Source: Sporopachydermia quercuum (taxonomy: Eukaryota; Ascomycota; Sporopachydermiomycetes; Sporopachydermiales; Sporopachydermiaceae). Taken from it: a stretch of 64,000 bases of DNA. Location of the stretch: NCBI GenBank assembly GCA_001599295.1, contig BCGN01000006.1, positions 744,001 to 808,000 of the forward strand, in the 5' to 3' direction. The stretch's first letter is position 1, and each line of letters begins with the position of its first letter. This document shows positions 1-50,905 of the stretch, piece by piece. Under the pieces are notes generated by a model. The model ran no database searches. It was not told the DNA's origin and saw only the letters and a program-made list of their open reading frames with translations. The translations under genes and the position numbers were made by a program.

Positions 1-691
1 AAGAGACAAAAAATTCTCTTTTTTTGTTGCCAAGTATCCCTGATACATTTGGTGAACAGTATTAAGCTGTTTCATAGCAATTTAATGTTTTTTCTCTTTC
101 TTAATGAGTATCTTATTTTCTTATCGTCCTGCATGCCTCACATACCAACGGTTTACGTATTCCCAATGGACAACATCTAGCATAATGCAAATCTTACAGA
201 TAGAAATGGCGAACATCCATTATATATTCACTTCTTGTTACTCGAATTTATTAAATAAAAGATTTAAGTCATGATTTCCATTCTTTGGTGTTCCAGAGAT
301 AAGCCGTAGCTGAATGCTTATCATCACGTGCGTGTTGGTTACCTAACTAGGCTGTTCCGGTCATTTAGTACTCACACACACTCCTCGTTTCTTTGGCAGT
401 TAGTTATCTTCGAGCACAAATGGACCACAGTTGTACTCCCACATAATCAAGGAACAAACAGAAGTATTAGACAGCTCATATCTATGTTATTAGATAAAAC
501 TGATTATCAGCGGAAATATAATGCCTAAAGGAAAAGCGTAGGNGTACACGGTAAAACAAGTAAGCGAGTTAAACTGGGCACGCAATCATCATTGTGTCTC
601 TGAAAGTCTAGGAATCTCATTGATACACCAGCAAACCAATCAGTATTGACATCAACAGTTTGGAAAAGAAGCAAACTGCTGGTGACAAATA
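1..691. other. Intergenic, left edge and ATG7 upstream region
   Basis: No convincing gene. The one open frame of 66 codons (328-528) lacks any recognisable motif and looks fortuitous. The last few hundred bases must hold the promoter of ATG7. One N at 543. Confidence 0.6.
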
Positions 692-2755
692 ATGGAGACC
701 AAGATATCGGATCAAGTGAAGTATGCTCCTATTTTCTCTTATGCTACCGCACCATTTTTCTCAAAATTGTCATCGAAAAAACTAAATGAATTCAAACTGA
801 AATCTTCATTGATTCCTATTACCGGCAACTATAACTGCCCAATAACCAGCGACTCGAGTCCTTCTATCACTTTGGATGGCAATAGTTTTGAAAATGATCT
901 NGGTGTTGAGTTTTGGAGGGAAAATTTCAATCTACTCTCATTCTCGGGGTCTGTTTACGTAGTAAACACAATTGANGAATTCAAAGAATTCGACCGGTCA
1001 AAGTTAGTAGAAGAAGTGTTGAGATCAACACTAATCGACCCGTTAGAGAACAATATTAATGAGATTCTGAACGATCCTTCGAAGCTCAATATATTCCTTT
1101 TGCTTGTATTCTGTGATCTGAAGAAGTTCAAGTACTATTACTGGTTTGCGTTTCCTACGCTTGCTACTAAATGGACGTTGGAGGTGCTTCATAAATCAAC
1201 ATATAGTCTTGATATTCATGATGGCCCTCTGGCAAATACAATCCGACAATATTTGGTGGATATGACTAGTATTGATGTACGGCAGAAAGGTTTTTTTCTG
1301 ATACGTGAAAGTTTATTTGGTAATGAGAGAGGTGAATGGGAGGTATCTCCATTGAATGAATTCACTGATGACTACTGGAAGGAAGAAACACCAATAGTAG
1401 GATTCATTGATTCAAGCACTATTCCTAATGCGCCATCATGGCAACTGAGGAATTTCTTGACACTATTAGTATATTTGGGGATCCAATCAGTAAACATTGT
1501 ATGCTTCCGTGATGTAATTGATACGCAGCATGCTGGTGATCCCAAAACAATTGTTTTAGAGGCAAGATTGAATGAACCTGAAGATTCGTACAATACAGGG
1601 AATGGGCTAGGAAAGGTTATACAGGGATGGGAAAAAACACATGATGGAAAATTGAGACCCAAAGCAGTTGATCTAGGAAAGCTCCTTGATCCCATTCAGC
1701 AAGCCGAAGAAGCTTCAGAGCTGAATGTGAAACTAATGAAATGGAGAATGGCTCCTGAATTAAAGCTAGATGATATATTCTCCAGGAAGTGTCTCTTGTT
1801 AGGAGCAGGAACTTTGGGTTGTAATGTGGCCCGTAATCTTTTGGCTTGGGGTGTGAAACATATTACCTTTGTTGATAATGGAAATGTAAGTTTTTCTAAC
1901 CCTGTTCGTCAGTCATTATTTACCTTTGATGATAGTGTACATGGTGCACCCAAAGCTNAGGCTGCTGCTGAAATGTTGAAGAAGATTTTGCCTACTGTAA
2001 CGGCGAGAGGCTATCGAATCGCTGTCCCAATGGCAGGACATCCTATTCTGAATGAAGAGAGTGAAAAACCAAATTACGAACTACTAGAAAAGTTAATTGA
2101 CGAACACGATGTAATATTTCTTTTGATGGACTCAAGAGAGAGTCGGTGGCTACCAACAGTTATGGCGAATGTGAAATCAAAACTTGTTATTAATGCTGCT
2201 TTAGGCTTTGACAGCTATTTGGTTATGAGACATGGCTGTCTCAAGGTTAAAGAGCTAGATCTTGAAGTGAATACTAATTCATCCCCAGAGGACTTGTTTG
2301 AGACAAGATTGGGTTGTTATTTTTGTCAGGATATCGTTGCACCTACAAATTCCCAAANCAATAGGACCATAGATCAAATGTGTACAGTCACTAGGCCTGG
2401 ATTAGCAATGATCGCATCTGCATATGCTGTGGAACTATTTGCTACTATTATGCAACATCCTGAAAGACAGTTTGCATCTGCATCAAATGGTGATGATATA
2501 CTTACTGTTTTAGGGAATCCGAAGCACCAAATCAGAGGCTCCTTGCGTGACAATAGCATCAACAATGTCGTTACTCCTGCGTATTCTCATTGTTCNGCTT
2601 GCTCTCTTCAAGTTTTGAGAAGGTACAAGGAAGATGGTTGGGATTTTGTAAAAAGATCATTANGCAGTATGTCTTACATTGAGAATTTAAGCGGACTAGC
2701 AGAGTTACAGCAAGAAGTAGATGATATAGGCGATATGGCATGGATGTCCGACTAA
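692..2755 (+). CDS. ATG7: Atg7, E1-like activating enzyme of autophagy
   Basis: Atg7 adenylates the C-terminal glycine of Atg8 and Atg12, takes them as thioesters and passes them to Atg3 and Atg10 in the cytosol. The 687-residue frame has the two expected parts. The N-terminal domain begins with the family-typical pattern [13 protein letters not shown] and contains [21 protein letters not shown] in halves around residue 236. The ThiF-like adenylation domain has the nucleotide loop GAGTLGC at about residues 371-377. The catalytic cysteine is in the motif [10 protein letters not shown] (C564), and Cys pairs CYFC and CxAC fit the E1 zinc site. Length is near the usual 630-700. Several codons contain an N, giving unresolved residues, but no frame break. 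It lies 519 bp upstream of GCN5 in the same orientation. Confidence 0.97.
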
Positions 2756-3274
2756 TCAACTAAACTATCTTNATCCGTGGTGACAGCCAACGCTCTAATA
2801 TAAAGAAAAAGTCAGATATAAACAAATATTTAAATTATAACAAAGGTTTTTTTTATTTATTATCTTTTTTAGTATATTTTAAGCCAACTAAAGCTTTCCC
2901 ACAGTTACATAGNATCAATGCTATTGTAAATATCACGTGATATTTCTTGCCTTCTTAGAGTATCTTGTGTACCTCCATTTACATTCACTAGAAAACAGGG
3001 TAATATTGCCCGTTTCAGACACTCGAACATGATAAACATGAAGATGTGAAATTTACAAGATCATAACCACAAAGCAATCAATTTACTACCACAAAGCACA
3101 AAACGCACGTTCGTATTGAAGTAAGAGAAGACCTGCGCCATTGCCACATGTCNAACAGCTTAATGATCTGCATTGTTTTTGTAGCTGATTGGTAGCAGAT
3201 AAGACGAAATAACGGTACCTTTGCATTGGTTGTAGTGGAATCTATGTAGTTTGCGTGATCTGATATAAGAAACG
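2756..3274. other. ATG7-GCN5 intergenic
   Basis: Tandem-oriented gap holding the ATG7 3' end and the GCN5 promoter. T-rich stretch near 2847-2880. Three isolated N bases (2772, 2913, 3153). No gene seen. Confidence 0.6.
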
Positions 3275-5248
<1,974 letters not shown>

Positions 5249-5447
5249 TGAGTAATAATTAGTGATTTTCGAAATCTGTATCTTACGTGTATAATTATGA
5301 TTGATAATTGATTCCCAGCGTGGAGNATTATATCAATAATCTAAAAAGAAAGGAATAGAATAAACATTCCTTACTTACTACAATTAACCACAAGGAAACC
5401 GTATTATATCGTAGTATTTTATATTAACATTCATTCTATGAAATAAA

Positions 5448-6200
5448 TTATATTTCAGCAGGTACTTCGCGTTCTAATTTCTCCACAATTTCCGCCATTC
5501 TGTCATCATCGTAAATCTTGAAGCCATCTTCTTTTGTCACACTGGCTAGTTGAGCATTCTTAGAGTCTAATTTCTCTTCCATAACTTGCTTGAGAATCTT
5601 TAATGCCAACAATTCAGCTTCTTCTAACGTCAATGACTGATGATATTCATTCTGTAGTTCTGCTTGAGCACCTTCACTGCCACTACCAATAGCTTTAGCA
5701 TCATATCTATAAAATGTTCCGGACGGTTCTGCATGATACAACTGAGGTCCATCCTCATCAACACCAGCAATTAGTAATGCCACACCAAAAGGTCGTGACA
5801 TGATTCTTTCCTCACCTTGAGCACCTTCACCAAATCTTAATGCTAAATCACAGACTGATTGTGTGACTGCTTCAACTCCTATTGATTCATCATAGTATAA
5901 ATTATGATTCAGCGTTTCAACTCGGGCGTGATTAATCATTGTTCTAGCATCGGCTGTTAAACCACTCATCGCACAACCCACATGTCTATCGATCTCCACT
6001 ATTTTCTCAATCGATGATGATTCCAGAAGTGAGGATGTAACTCTCTTCTCCACGCCAAGGATAACACCTTGAGATGTTGCAATCCCAATGGCTGTTGATC
6101 CTAACTTAATGGCTTCCAATGAATATTCTACTTGGAATAATCTTCCTTCCGGAGAAAATGTACTGACACCCCTGTCATACTCGCTTCGAGTTAAAAACAT
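5448..6200 (-). CDS. PUP2: Proteasome 20S alpha5 subunit
   Basis: Structural subunit of the outer heptameric alpha ring of the 20S proteasome. The 250-residue product begins with the alpha-subunit signature [20 protein letters not shown], in which the N-terminal tail helps gate the pore. It continues with the alpha5-typical stretches [52 protein letters not shown] and [15 protein letters not shown]. Length is slightly below Saccharomyces Pup2 (260), which has a longer acidic tail. No catalytic Thr is expected in alpha subunits. It converges with GCN5 (199 bp between stops) and diverges from ADE3 across 1.4 kb. No intron is needed. I did not find a proteasome-associated control element in the upstream region. 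Confidence 0.97.
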
Positions 6201-7601
6201 AATTGCTGTTTGAACGATACTGGATTAGAATTGATAGTTGATGGATGATGAAGACTACACAAGTAGTAATCTTTGATGAGCTGTGTACTGATATCTGCTA
6301 TCTTCTGACACAACTAATTAAGACGTCCCTTCTGTTAATACAAACGGTGTCAGTTAGCTTCAATTGTAATAGAAATATATGGTATCGTTTTAATAGACTT
6401 CAAACTGAACTAAACTTCAATCATCCTCCATACTTGCTGAATAATTTATTGATATCCAAACACCAACCCATGAAGTTGCCCAGTTTGTGTGGCGATTAGT
6501 GTCCCATTCGANTGCTATTACTTAAGGGGGAGGATACACGAGAGAAGTAGCCTCCCAGCAGAATCTGGGTGTACCCATGGTACAATTGTTGACATAATCA
6601 AATGTACATGGATTATGATTATTTTAGCTTTCATTTTAAATGTATCACTTGCAGAAACTCGCAGAAACTCCTACCATTTTGAGTTTTGAGAAACAGGTCT
6701 AAGAAGAAAAATAAGACTCGGGAATGAAAAAAAAGTCCCATTAAGATGAAAAAGAAGTCTGTTTCTTTGAACCGATATTGATATTAAAGAAATAAATGCT
6801 ACGAGAACAAAATAGGAATAGCAAATACATGAATCAGAAACTGTTGATGAGCTCGAGATGGAGAATGTAAGAAAAGATAGATTTTGTTAATCACGTTGCG
6901 TTAAGAAGACATTCAAGTCCTATGATATATTCATCTATATTCATTTGGCTCTTTACATTCCTCTCCCTTGCTTTCTATCATTGCAGTCTAGCCGTGGCTA
7001 CTTACACACAGCAGATGAACTTGACTAAAAGGAGAACTCATATCTTCAAACGCTACAACTTATTATCATTATCTATATTCACCTATCCAAAACCTTTAAA
7101 TTTCCATAACTTCTTCGACGCTTTTCTTTCTCATTTCTGATCCTATTCGTTATCCTCATATTCCTAAAAATTTTCTCTCCTCCGGCTCTTCTCCATCACC
7201 GGTTCACTTTCTCTCCATTCACCTTCTTGAATAACGTTAAGCATTTCACTGCTCAACGTTGAACTTCACATTATCTTCCTAACTCTAAAATAAAGTTTTG
7301 CACATTATTTCAAACCCAATTTCCCATGCACCTAATCTTTCAATGCTTTTCACTATGTCCATTTTTCACATTTCTTTCTTTACTTCAAACAACAGTTGGT
7401 AAGTAGACAAATAGTTATATATTATCAATAGATCAACAGGTTCTGCTGATTGAATGCCGCTCATTGGTTGACGAACTGAACGAACTGAACGAACTGAACA
7501 GTAGTTCCGAGGCTGATAGATTGTTAGTTTGCTTTGACCCTACCATATTGTAGTGGAGGATCATACCCAATAAAACAAAAGCAATAAACGAATCAAGCAA
7601 A
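6201..7601. other. PUP2-ADE3 divergent promoter region
   Basis: 1.4 kb between divergent genes, carrying both promoters. It is pyrimidine-rich from about 6930 to 7390. Frames of 66-84 codons are present but show no family resemblance. A 9-bp triplicate repeat (7472-7499) lies about 100 bp upstream of the ADE3 start. Confidence 0.6.
7472..7499 (+). repeat. Three tandem copies of a 9-bp unit
   Basis: The unit CGAACTGAA occurs three times head to tail, followed by a single C, just upstream of ADE3. It may be a regulatory-site cluster or simple slippage; nothing in the sequence decides between these. Confidence 0.85.
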
Positions 7602-10600
7602 ATGGTTGCCGAAATTATTGATGGGACTTCTATTGCCAAGTAAGTATTGAAATTAAATGATTTTCAGTGAGCATGACGCGAACATGGATACAATTACTTT
7701 TNTCATTCAAACCATTTTATAAATGTTTTATACTAACTTATCATAGGTCAATCCGCGTACACCTTCACGAAGAAATTCAAGAAATTCAAAGCAAAGATGC
7801 TTCTTTCAAACCAAATTTAGTTATCATTCAAGTGGGTTCAAGACCCGACTCTTCTACTTATGTTAGAATGAAGCTCAAGGCTGCTACTGAAGCCAATATT
7901 GAATGCAGTGCTAAAGCCTTACCTGAAGATGTCAGTGAGCATGAGGTATGTATTGAAATTTCAATTGTTTATATTATAAGTATTTTGTTATTCTGNAAGG
8001 TAAACTGATGGTTGTACAGGAGTTGTTGATGTTTATACTACCTCAGACAGCTTTATTATACATTTTGTTAGGTTCGCCAATACGAAAACTATGCTAGTAT
8101 AAATTCTACACTATCGGCATATTCACTAACACGAAATCTTTAGCTTTTGACTCAAATTGAAGCATTGAACGAAAACCCTGCTGTTCATGGCATTCTTGTC
8201 CAATTACCTTTACCCAGTCATATCAATGAAAGTAAGATCACTTCTGCTGTTGCATCAGAAAAAGACGTTGACGGATTTGGTCCTTACAATATTGGTGAAT
8301 TGGCTATGAAGAATGGTAAGCCAAATTTCATTCCTTGCACACCTAAAGGAATTATGACCTTACTGACTTCCAGCAACGTTGAAATCTCCGGAAAGCATGC
8401 AGTTATTCTTGGACGATCGGATATTGTAGGATCACCAGTTTCTCACTTGCTGAAAAATGCTGATGCTACTGTCACCGTCTTGCATTCCAAGTCTCAAAAC
8501 ATTCCTCAACATTTAGCAACTGCTGACATTGTTATTGCTGCTATCGGTAAACCAGGCTTTGTTAAAGGTGAATGGTTGAAACTAGATGCTGTTGTTATTG
8601 ACGTTGGTACCAACTATATCCCTGACGAAACCAAGAAAAGCGGACAAAGATTGGTTGGTGATGTTGACTTTGAATCAGCTGTTAAGGTAGCATCAAAGAT
8701 CACCCCTGTTCCTGGTGGAGTTGGCCCAATGACAGTTGCTACTTTGTTAGAAAACGTCGTTTTGTCTGCGAAGAGATTTAAGGAATCTCGTTCAAACACG
8801 CACATTGAACCATTACAATTAAATCTCCAAACCCCTGTACCATCAGATTTTGCTATCTCCAGAGCTCAAATACCTAAACATATCACTCAAGTCGCTAAGG
8901 AAATTGGCGTTTTGCCATCAGAATTAGAACCCTATGGAGCGTATAAAGCTAAGATCAAGCTTGATTTACTTGACAGATTGAACAACAGAAAGAATGGTAA
9001 ATATGTTTTGGTTACAGGTATTACCCCAACACCATTAGGGGAGGGTAAATCAACTACAACTGTTGGATTGACCCAAGCATTAGGTGCTCATTTAAATAAG
9101 ATTGTTTTTGCTAATGTTCGTCAACCAAGTATGGGTCCTACTTTTGGTATTAAAGGTGGTGCTGCTGGTGGTGGATACTCTCAGGTTATTCCAATGGATG
9201 AATTCAATATGCATTTAACTGGTGATATTCATGCGATTTCTATGGCTACCAATTTATTGGCCGCTGCTATCGATACAAGAATGTTTCATGAAAGTAGTCA
9301 AAAAGATGGTCCTTTATATAGAAGATTGGTTCCTACCAAGAAAGGAGTAAGAAAATTCTCTCCTGTTATGTTCAGAAGATTAAAGAAGTTAAGTATTGAT
9401 AAGACAGATCCTAATGAGCTTACTGAGGATGAAATTCATAGATTTGTTCGATTAGATATTGACCCTGACTCTATTACATGGAGACGTGTTGTTGATTGTA
9501 ACGATAGACACTTACGTGGCATTACAATTGGTGAAGCACCTACGGAAAAAGGCCATACTAGGAAAACTGGATTTGACATTTCTGTTGCTTCAGAATGTAT
9601 GGCAGTTTTGGCATTGTCGAACTCATTGGAAGACATGAGAGAAAGATTAGGACGTATGGTCGTTGCTGCTTCTCGAGAAGGGGAGCCAATCACTTGTGAC
9701 GATATTGGAGCTGGTGGAGCTTTGACTGCTTTGATGAAAGATGCCATCAAACCAAATATCATGCAAACTTTAGAAGGTACCCCGGTTTTCGTTCATGCTG
9801 GTCCTTTTGCTAATATTTCTATTGGTGCTAACTCTGTTTTGGCTGATAAAATGGCCCTTAAATTAGCTGGCACTGAACCAGGCGAAGCTGATGATAAAGT
9901 TGGTTATGTTGTCACTGAAGCAGGTTTCGATTTCACTATGGGTGGTGAAAGATTCTTCAATATTAAGTGCAGATCTTCCGGTTTGGTTCCTGATGTAGTT
10001 GTTATTGTTGCTACTGTTAGAGCTCTCAAATTACACGGTGGTGGCCCTGATGTTTCACCAGGTGTTCCTTTACCTGATGTTTACTTGAATGAAGATGTTG
10101 AGCTGTTAAGAAAAGGCTGTGCTAACTTGGGCAAACATATTAGCAACGCTAAACAATACGGCTTGCCAGTTGTTGTTGCTATCAATAAAATGTCTTCTGA
10201 TACCGATGCCGAACATGCTGTTATTAGAGAAGAAGCTATTAAGTATGGTGCTGAAGATGCTATTGTTTCTGATCATTGGGCTTTAGGTGGTAAAGGTGCC
10301 GTTAACTTAGCTAACGGTGTTATTGAAGCAGCTAATAAACAAAGCGATTTCCAATTTCTATATCCAACTGAAGGTAAAACCGTCGAAGAAAAGATTGAAA
10401 TTATTGCTCAAAAGATGTACGGTGCATCCAATGTTGAGTTCTCTGAAGTTGCTCAAAAGAAGATTGATCTCTACTCCAAACAAGGCTTTGATAAGTTACC
10501 AATTTGTATTGCAAAGACTCAATATTCTTTGTCTCACGATGCTTCCTTGAAAGGAGTTCCAACTGGATTTACTTTCCCTATCAGAGACGTAAGAGCATCT

Positions 10601-17856: not shown

Positions 17857-18633
17857 TCAATTACCCCTAATCCAGCCTGCAAGTCTGGAAAGCCATCCTT
17901 TGGTATCCTCTGCGGCCTTATCAACATCACCTCTTGCAGCATCAACACTATTGGCAGTTCTGTAACGGGCATCATCAATTGATTCATTAGCATTTTGCTT
18001 ANTATTTTCCCAATTCTGTCTAGCGGTATCACGAGCTTGTTGAGCTCTTGCATCNACTTGGTTTTTGGTGTCTTCAGCAGATTTTTTTAACCCCAGCCAG
18101 TTTCTTTCTGCCTTGTCATGCACTTCGTCTGCCTTTCTGCTAGCATCGTCACGTGCATCTTGAGCAGATTGCTTAATTCCTAACCAGTTTCTATGAGCAG
18201 TATCCTGAGCTTGTTCGATATTATTGTCCGCATGATCTTTTGCTTCAGCAGCTTCCTGTTTGAGATTCACCCAACTTTCTTCAGCACGGTCACCAAATTC
18301 TTGTACTTGTTTTTTAGCGTATCCTGCTCCTTCGTCAATTTTTCTTCCTGCCCATTCTGCGTTCTTCTTATTGTGCTCTTCTATAGGATCTGGTCCTCGA
18401 AATGGCTTTGCTATTGTGCTTTTAACGGAGTTATAGTTCTCCTTAACTGTCTGTCCAAGTTCATCAGCTGCACGTGAAGCTCTAGCGCTGAGTTTCTTTG
18501 CCTCTTGTTCTGTTTCCCATCTAGCACGATCAACAGTCCATTGTCGCTTCATGTATACATAAGTGACACCAGATCCTGCTGCTGCACCAACCAACATTGG
18601 TACCAATTGAGGATTTCTACTTAATGGGGCCAT
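17857..18633 (-). CDS. Amphipathic LEA/apolipoprotein-like protein with four 29-residue Trp repeats
   Basis: Function unknown. The first ATG gives MAPLSRNPQ and 258 residues. An N-terminal hydrophobic segment (VPMLVGAAAGSGVTYVYM, about 11-28) could anchor it in a membrane. The rest is highly charged, Ala/Lys/Asp/Glu/Gln-rich and predicted helical, like late-embryogenesis-abundant or perilipin/apolipoprotein helices. Residues 119-234 form four perfect 29-residue repeats, each with Trp at position 3 and the core xxWxxxKxxA, e.g. RNWLGIKQSA and RNWLGLKKSA. A degenerate fifth Trp lies 27 residues earlier. The protein ends WLSRLAGWIRGN, another amphipathic helix. Two codons contain N. Likely roles (inference only): lipid-droplet or mitochondrial surface binding, or desiccation protection. 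Neighbour upstream is 2.2 kb away. Confidence 0.85.
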   Translation of the reverse strand: MAPLSRNPQLVPMLVGAAAGSGVTYVYMKRQWTVDRARWETEQEAKKLSARASRAADELGQTVKENYNSVKSTIAKPFRGPDPIEEHNKKNAEWAGRKIDEGAGYAKKQVQEFGDRAEESWVNLKQEAAEAKDHADNNIEQAQDTAHRNWLGIKQSAQDARDDASRKADEVHDKAERNWLGLKKSAEDTKNQXDARAQQARDTARQNWENXKQNANESIDDARYRTANSVDAARGDVDKAAEDTKGWLSRLAGWIRGN

Positions 18634-49312: not shown

Positions 49313-50905
49313 TTATGAAATGATAAATCCTTCATAATTATTCTTAGCACACTTAGCTAATCTATGACGATAGTCAGGTAATCCACCTAAATAGTTCAAA
49401 GGTTCAATCTTCTTACCAGGAATGTTAGCACCCATATACCAGGACTTAGCTTTGGGGAATAATGATTTATTAGTCAACTCGATATTTCTATTGGTCCACT
49501 CTTCCTCATATTCTTCTTGAGGACTGATTTTACTCTTACCAGAATCAAGGACATCTTTAATCAATTTAACAATAAATATGCCTTGACCCTCAACACAACT
49601 TGGACCATTACAGAAAGCAGTTGGTGCTTGAGGACCATAAGTATAGAACATATTAGGGAATCCAGCAACACTCAAACCGTAAGAAGTTTGAAGACGCTCA
49701 GCCCATTTATCCTTAAGTTTGAGGCTATTCTCACCTTCGATGTCAATTTGATTATAACTACCAGTTAAAGAGTCAAATCCTGTAGCTAAAACTAATAGAT
49801 CGAATTCAATTTCTGTACCGTCTTTCAGAATTGCACCNTTTTCTTTGAAATCAACAATTGGATTAGCATTCCAATCAACAACATCAACGCTATCACTATT
49901 GAAACATTCATAAAAATTTTGTTCCAGTGATGGTCTCTTAGTACCAAAAGGATGAGGTTGTATCTTGGGAGCTAAGATTTCTCTCTTCCTTGGATCCTTG
50001 ACTCTTGCTGCTGTCTTTCTTTGCCAATAGTCATAAGCAATATCATTTGCTTTTTGATCAAATAAAATATCATTATAAGTAGCAAGCCAAAATTCGAATC
50101 CACCAGCAGAAAACAAATCATCAAAGAACTTTTCTCTCTGTTCTGGTGTATCTTCAAAAACACTCTTCGAAGAGAAATCAAATTGCATACCACCAAATGT
50201 ATCTAATCTGTCCTCATAGAATTTTTCATTCTTACCTGGTTGTTTATCGTTAGGACCATACTTTTCTTGTTGCATTGGTAAACATAAGTTAGGAGTTCTT
50301 TGGAAAACAGTAACTTCCTTAGCAACTTCTGCAGCTTCTTGAGTTACTTGAATACCTGTTGAACCAGTACCAATTATAGCAATCTTTCTGTTAGTCATAT
50401 CAACCCCTTCTAAAGGCCAGTCAGAAGTATGATAACACTCACCTTGGTAATTATGTAAACCTTTGAAGTTAGGGACAAATTTCTTAGCAGCAAACCCAGT
50501 ACAAGGTAAGAAGAAAGTAGCAGTAGCATGGACACCATCTTGGGTGTGAATATGCCATTTATTTTCGTGGCTCTTATAATGAGCAGCAGTGACAAAACTA
50601 TTAAGGGTGACATCAGGCCAAAGATTCAATGTATCACCAGCAAATTTGAAATATTTCTGAAGTTCAGGCCAAGCAGGATATTTTTCAGACCATTTCCAAG
50701 ACCAAAGCTTTGGATTTGATAACTCATAAACAGGAATTGACGAGTCAACTCTTGCTCCTGGATAGCGGTTATGACACCAGGTGCCACCTAGCATTTCACC
50801 AGAATCAAAGATATGAACTTTGAGTCCTAATTCTCTTAATTTATCTAAGAAATAGATACCGGAGAAACCAGCTCCAATAATAATAACATCGTATTCATCA
50901 ACCAT
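49313..50905 (-). CDS. Flavin-dependent monooxygenase, Baeyer-Villiger type
   Basis: Predicted FAD/NADPH enzyme that inserts oxygen beside a carbonyl, turning ketones into esters or lactones. 530 residues, the normal size for the family. The FAD-binding GxGxxG is GAGFSG at 11-16, followed by the typical GGTWCHNRYPGARVD (40-54). The NADPH-binding Rossmann loop GTGSTG is at 179-184. The Baeyer-Villiger fingerprint FxGxxxHxxxW(P/D) appears as YQGECYHTSDWP at 153-164, with Tyr for Phe at the first position. The later LVLATGFDSLTG is also family-typical. No signal or membrane segment. The gene has no intron, in an intron-rich neighbourhood, and such enzymes are patchy in budding yeasts, so horizontal origin is possible. 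It diverges from a serine hydrolase 3.2 kb away. One codon contains N. Confidence 0.9.
   Translation of the reverse strand: MVDEYDVIIIGAGFSGIYFLDKLRELGLKVHIFDSGEMLGGTWCHNRYPGARVDSSIPVYELSNPKLWSWKWSEKYPAWPELQKYFKFAGDTLNLWPDVTLNSFVTAAHYKSHENKWHIHTQDGVHATATFFLPCTGFAAKKFVPNFKGLHNYQGECYHTSDWPLEGVDMTNRKIAIIGTGSTGIQVTQEAAEVAKEVTVFQRTPNLCLPMQQEKYGPNDKQPGKNEKFYEDRLDTFGGMQFDFSSKSVFEDTPEQREKFFDDLFSAGGFEFWLATYNDILFDQKANDIAYDYWQRKTAARVKDPRKREILAPKIQPHPFGTKRPSLEQNFYECFNSDSVDVVDWNANPIVDFKEXGAILKDGTEIEFDLLVLATGFDSLTGSYNQIDIEGENSLKLKDKWAERLQTSYGLSVAGFPNMFYTYGPQAPTAFCNGPSCVEGQGIFIVKLIKDVLDSGKSKISPQEEYEEEWTNRNIELTNKSLFPKAKSWYMGANIPGKKIEPLNYLGGLPDYRHRLAKCAKNNYEGFIIS

Follow-up and report, generated by a model that had tools for sequence, protein, structure and literature searches.

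A 258-residue protein from the yeast Sporopachydermia quercuum contains four tandem units of 29 residues, each with a Trp at its third position, in a region predicted to be almost entirely helical (Table 1). The repeat is real; its building blocks are ordinary, and their sum is unusual. Tentatively, and with less than even confidence, we favor a single-pass, N-terminally anchored and almost wholly helical rod, most likely at the mitochondrial outer membrane and similar to Om45. The stretch of DNA analyzed here (the window) comprises 64,000 nucleotides of a genome of 16.39 Mb in 12 contigs. A protein search of that genome matched only the protein itself, with no second copy.

Table 1. Positions in the window of the open reading frame and of the features of its product
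Feature	Residues	Positions	Strand	Remarks
ORF P0001	258 aa	17857..18633	minus	ATG start, no interruption; sole copy found in genome
N-terminal hydrophobic stretch	10-28	18550..18606	minus	Best 19-residue window, mean Kyte-Doolittle 1.41; then K-R-Q-W
Predicted helix 1	23-73	18415..18567	minus	Runs out of the putative anchor; block pLDDT 53-78
Pro/Gly linker	75-83	18385..18411	minus	pLDDT <50 at 75-81
Fifth, degenerate unit	92-118	18280..18360	minus	27 residues; Trp94; W-A-G-R-K start
Unit 1	119-147	18193..18279	minus	29 residues
Unit 2	148-176	18106..18192	minus	29 residues
Unit 3	177-205	18019..18105	minus	29 residues; one codon GTN, always Val
Unit 4	206-234	17932..18018	minus	29 residues; codon ANT = Ile, Asn, Ser or Thr
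C-terminal amphipathic helix	240-257	17863..17916	minus	Trp247 and Trp254; moment 0.52

A preliminary description of this DNA had reported four exact, Trp-headed repeats of 29 residues. The four units are confirmed at 17932-18279 on the minus strand (residues 119-234), with Trp121, Trp150, Trp179 and Trp208 spaced 29 residues apart at unit position 3. The repeats are exact in length. Their sequences are not: any two units are identical at 8-12 of 29 residues and at 39-48 of 87 bases, and five of the 29 columns are invariant across all four (W3, K7, A10, D26 and A28). The array goes undetected by Tandem Repeats Finder. As only this many bases agree next to the shared residues, the units may be old, or may have been kept alike by selection on the protein. 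The fifth unit is two residues shorter and retains the W-x-G-x-K start. Counted from Trp94, the Trp spacings are 27, 29, 29, 29, 39 and 7.

The periodicity is evident over most of the protein. Between residues 30 and 258, 36 positions are identical at lag 29, compared to 15.2 in shuffled sequences (z 5.7), a value reached by none of 20,000 shuffles, and the signal persists with all Trp residues masked (z 5.0). When residues 119-234 are folded at a period of 29, the pair identity is 0.345 versus 0.085 in shuffles (z 12.5). Of 19 ORFs examined in the window, two exceed z 2.5 at lag 29, namely this one (5.6) and a GCN5-like ORF (4.6), and the excess in the latter is due to its Glu/Asp-rich tract. 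In this second ORF (3275-5248, assigned by eye), the acidic tract is very long and lies in the N-terminal part, which is unusual for a GCN5 acetyltransferase.

A spurious or decaying ORF, with a pattern that arose by chance, is hardly credible given the uninterrupted 258 codons, the residues shared between units though so few of their bases agree, and the failure of every shuffle to reach the lag-29 signal. Two ambiguous bases within the repeats and a codon-adaptation index of 0.588 (7th among the 12 window genes scored) are the points in its favor. Single N letters are scattered over the window at 34 positions, 17 of them within 1-8000 and two inside this ORF (18002 and 18055). They are possibly heterozygous or ambiguous base calls of the assembly.

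The period of 29 can be resolved into shorter ones. In residues 30-258, lags 7 (z 2.6), 11 (z 3.3), 18 (z 4.8) and 25 (z 2.8) are enriched besides 29 and 58. For residues 85-247 the enriched lags are 11 (z 3.4), 18 (z 4.0) and 40 (z 2.6), with 7 and 25 absent, and upstream of the array (residues 30-118) they are 18, 25, 43 and 61 (z 2.9-3.5). Lag 7 falls below z 2.5 once Trp is masked, as it does in residues 85-247, and the heptad is the weakest component of the pattern. Folding of residues 119-234 at other periods gives z 3.1 for 11, 2.5 for 18, 0.8 for 22 and -0.3 for 7.

A scan of the 203 distinct eight-position registers that consist of three 3-steps and five 4-steps finds the best one at unit positions 3, 6, 10, 13, 17, 21, 24 and 28, with 26 nonpolar residues. 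This strip is nonpolar at 26 of its 30 known positions, as against 10 of 84 outside it. Its steps, 3-4-3-4-4-3-4-4, are readable as 7+11+11, that is, one heptad and two hendecads. The runner-up registers contain 25 and 24 nonpolar residues, and the order of the 3s and 4s is therefore not firmly fixed. Because lags 7, 11, 18 and 25 are raised and the register reads as 7+11+11, the period of 29 is best described, at the level of sequence, as a higher-order period built on a heptad/hendecad pattern. The repeat had initially been taken for a design apart from the 11-residue helices of LEA proteins and apolipoproteins. This distinction largely does not hold, in view of the enriched lags 11 and 18, the register, and Apolipoprotein as the best Pfam match (see below). 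A text search of the literature did not find '29-residue repeat' together with 'amphipathic'; the decomposition of coiled coils into 3, 4 and 7 is discussed in the available text of PMC9369452.

The prediction by AlphaFold2 that had been proposed as a check places one helix over residues 84-191, in a single-sequence model with a pTM of 0.34 and a mean pLDDT of 78.5. The other predicted helices cover residues 23-73, 195-209 and 213-257. Block pLDDT values within helix 84-191 are 63-79 up to residue 110, and they are 86-95 over residues 111-220. The breaks at 192-194 and 210-212 are probably artefacts of the model, since they are located on the unknown residues 193 and 211. At 0.15 nm per residue, helix 84-191 would be roughly 16 nm long.

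The expectation that 29 residues make eight helical turns and bring the four Trp onto one face is borne out. The turns have 3.625 residues each, a pitch that brings the four Trp of the array to the same angle (resultant 1.00); the resultant is 0.93 at 100 degrees and 0.81 at 11/3. Addition of Trp94, Trp247 and Trp254, leaving out Trp32 and Trp39, reduces it to 0.50 at 29/8 and 0.63 at 100 degrees, so not all Trp residues of the protein lie on one face. The hydrophobicity of residues 84-257 has a period of 3.618. Its moment is reached by none of 3000 permutations for residues 84-258 and by one of 3000 for residues 119-234. Unit 3 alone has no helical hydrophobic period, its best angle being 118 degrees.

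These features are also compatible, in part, with a purely protein-protein coiled rod, the main rival of the anchored rod proposed here. The strip would then be an interface with a partner or with other copies in a homo-oligomer, as in a coiled-coil or helix-bundle tether, the Trp residues would act as spaced knobs, and lipid would be contacted only at the anchor. A register of 3- and 4-residue steps is that of heptad and hendecad coiled coils, and the low mean hydrophobicity of residues 119-234 (-0.09) suits a soluble rod. On the other hand, Ala predominates in the strip, where large residues other than Trp and Leu/Ile are few, and Foldseek finds no match in the PDB at E ≤10, for which a single-sequence rod model is a poor query. 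We consider the coiled rod rather unlikely.

The moments of the individual units are 0.21-0.32 and their mean hydrophobicities 0.00 to -0.14. Published moments, as given in the available text of PMC5889406, are 0.30 for alpha-synuclein, 0.35 for Plin3, 0.39 for ApoA-I and 0.53 for CIDEA; they were obtained by similar, not identical, methods and are only roughly comparable with ours. Judged against these values, the array would bind lipid weakly at best. The C-terminal tail (residues 240-257), with a moment of 0.52 and a mean hydrophobicity of 0.36, would be the strong binder, and its moment resembles that of CIDEA (available text of PMC5889406). The terminal Trp helix of the preliminary description is thus present, as an amphipathic helix, and it is the strongest candidate for lipid binding in the protein.

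In favor of a lipid-droplet coat of the perilipin or Oil1 type are the length and repetition of the amphipathic helix and the bulky residues in the helix at the C-terminus; Oil1, a Yarrowia protein, has been called perilipin-like (available text of PMC12446351). However, the seven Pfam families listed at E ≤10 do not include Perilipin (PF03036), the hydrophobic stretch at the N-terminus points to an anchor in a bilayer, and the unit moments are below that of Plin3, though they bracket that of alpha-synuclein (a rough comparison; available text of PMC5889406). We regard such a coat as improbable. The Perilipin model has no match in a search of the genome either, a search in which it matched no control. 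Perilipin 4 offers a parallel in its giant amphipathic helix, where tandem units likewise impose a longer period on the 11-mers (33 = 3x11, per the available text of PMC5889406). The unit here is 29 rather than 33, as 7+11+11, and every unit contains a Trp, whereas the Plin4 helix has no bulky residues according to the available text of PMC8064757.

The best Pfam match of the protein is Apolipoprotein (PF01442), with an E of 5.5e-7 and a score of 29.9 bits, well below the cut-off of 90. The top match in a PDB sequence search (phmmer) is ApoA-IV (E 0.0083). The Apolipoprotein model also matches in 10 of 14 control genomes, all ten of them prokaryotic and none above the cut-off, and another, unrelated place in the S. 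quercuum genome outscores this ORF. The match therefore reflects a pattern and not kinship. Exchangeable apolipoproteins share the long helices with 11-residue periodicity (theirs per the available text of PMC5889406), but the 258-residue protein differs in its N-terminal hydrophobic stretch and in having no 22-residue signal (z 0.8). Two other loci of the genome that match PF01442 (L003 and L005) are absent from the protein search with this ORF; the long ORFs listed there look unrelated to it. An ORF at L003:712-1629 has a hydrophobic N-terminal part and ends in tandem 11-residue repeats (S-Y-I-D-E-A-S-E-S-T-T), and its product is perhaps a secreted or cell-wall protein.

In the case of LEA proteins, an anchored helix of the group 3 type that folds on drying and shields the membrane would account for the charged, Ala-rich composition (42 basic and 43 acidic residues between 28 and 258) and for the embedded 11-residue periodicity, both of which resemble LEA_4. 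The protein, however, is Trp-rich (nine Trp in 258 residues), unlike LEA proteins, and likely anchored. For the 11-mers of LEA proteins, an amphipathic helical fold is assumed (available text of PMC8670023). A pure 11-residue period is not observed (z 3.1 at 11 compared to 12.5 at 29 for residues 119-234), and LEA_4 is not found among the seven Pfam families listed at E ≤10, so neither of the families named beforehand as evidence against a new design, LEA and perilipin, is matched. Moreover, two matches to the AGGGG stress element are present in the 800 bp upstream of the ORF, and at least two are found in 124 of the 1264 window stretches of 800 bp; this count is therefore no signal of stress control. 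A LEA-like protectant appears quite unlikely.

The remaining matches to known families at E ≤10 are weak, 12 in NCBIfam and four in PHROGs. The best of these are a PHA granule protein (E 0.004, 17.2 bits with 94.7 required) and a tail tape-measure protein (E 0.0039), and they are read as matches to a helix pattern. A fold search of a viral library gives one match, at E 7. The protein may also bear some resemblance to fungal 'calcofluor white hypersensitive' proteins.

The N-terminal hydrophobic anchor of the preliminary description has to be stated with more caution, as the stretch is present but only moderately hydrophobic (mean 1.41). It is likely to be a membrane anchor. Moderate hydrophobicity followed by basic residues suits the signal anchors of the mitochondrial outer membrane. 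Among the three roles originally suggested, a tether is compatible with these observations; a lipid coat is less likely because the moments of the repeats are small and a membrane anchor is likely.

In the anchored rod that we favor, the N-terminal stretch would insert into a membrane, most likely the mitochondrial outer membrane, as in Om45. The long repeat helix may lie along this membrane or along a partner protein, with each unit contributing one Trp and a few Ala residues to the contact face, and the C-terminal Trp helix could fix the other end of the protein to this membrane or to a facing one. The repeat would thus serve as a spacer or rod with a non-winding contact face, since 29/8 = 3.625 matches an undistorted helix.

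A detailed comparison was made with Om45, a mitochondrial outer-membrane protein of S. cerevisiae, in the form of a provisional sequence, three stretches of which agree with primers printed in the available text of PMC12116889. The two proteins share an N-terminal hydrophobic stretch, a long charged domain in which Trp occur at scattered positions, and Trp near the C-terminus. The provisional Om45 is longer (393 residues versus 258) and has a more hydrophobic anchor (mean 1.88 versus 1.41), and its Trp residues (120, 223, 264, 288, 305, 339, 340, 343, 379 and 388) are not regularly spaced at 29. Its lags above z 2.3 are 7, 40 and 58 (z 2.6-2.7), where 58 = 2x29 and 40 = 29+11; lags 11, 18 and 29 all remain below this value. 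The Smith-Waterman score between the two is reached by none of 500 residue shuffles and by 19 of 500 block shuffles, and the hhalign score (probability 3.3) by none of 150 and four of 150, respectively. There is no match by phmmer at an E of 1000, so that by this method ApoA-IV (E 0.0083) is the better match, and an HMM of the 29-residue unit performs no better on the provisional Om45 than on shuffles (848 of 1000 reach its score). A search of the genome with the provisional Om45 gave no match at E ≤10, although an empty result shows nothing where, as here, there was no positive control. Homology to Om45 is suggestive at most, a lead and not membership. According to the available text of PMC7338081, Om45 is an abundant protein of unknown function that cross-links to Por1 and Nde1; the first descriptions had it facing the cytosol, whereas this text places it largely in the intermembrane space. 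It is also cited as an interactor of MICOS (available text of PMC10214851).

No relative of the protein was confirmed among six pattern stretches of viral contigs or 47 stretches of bacterial and archaeal genome contigs, and tblastn found none in plasmids. As these collections are viral, prokaryotic and plasmid rather than fungal, the searches are silent on the conservation of the 29-residue beat. A more far-reaching version of the rod, which we count as a long shot, would be a family conserved within the lineage, whose 7+11+11 unit has one Trp and one Lys in every eight turns and forms an untwisted ruler apposed to the membrane, of about 4.4 nm per unit, the number of units setting the span between two membranes. 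Conservation of the beat in relatives would make the protein a natural example of a straight amphipathic rod encoded in sequence, intermediate between the heptad (3.5) and hendecad (3.67) classes; it would also offer a way into those fungal proteins of the mitochondrial surface that, like Om45, are poorly understood. Otherwise, this is one more charged helical membrane protein of a yeast.

The gene is located among ordinary fungal genes, with that for the CCT zeta subunit immediately downstream. Other neighbors encode proteasome alpha-5, ATG7, a Zn2-Cys6 transcription factor with a fungal-specific domain, and a GATA/AreA-type protein. The top PDB matches of CCT zeta and of proteasome alpha-5/PUP2 are chains that we take to be from S. 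cerevisiae. The three CTG codons in CCT6 and PSMA5 align with Leu (two of three) and Val (one of three). As none of them aligns with Ser, a CTG-Ser yeast is rejected; CTG appears to be read as Leu here, in what we take for a budding yeast outside the CTG-Ser clade. Elsewhere in the window, in a stretch poor in ORFs of at least 140 residues, a flavin monooxygenase-like protein (49313-50905) is encoded near a protein of the beta-lactamase fold (PF00144, 54082-55305), and both are possible catabolic genes.
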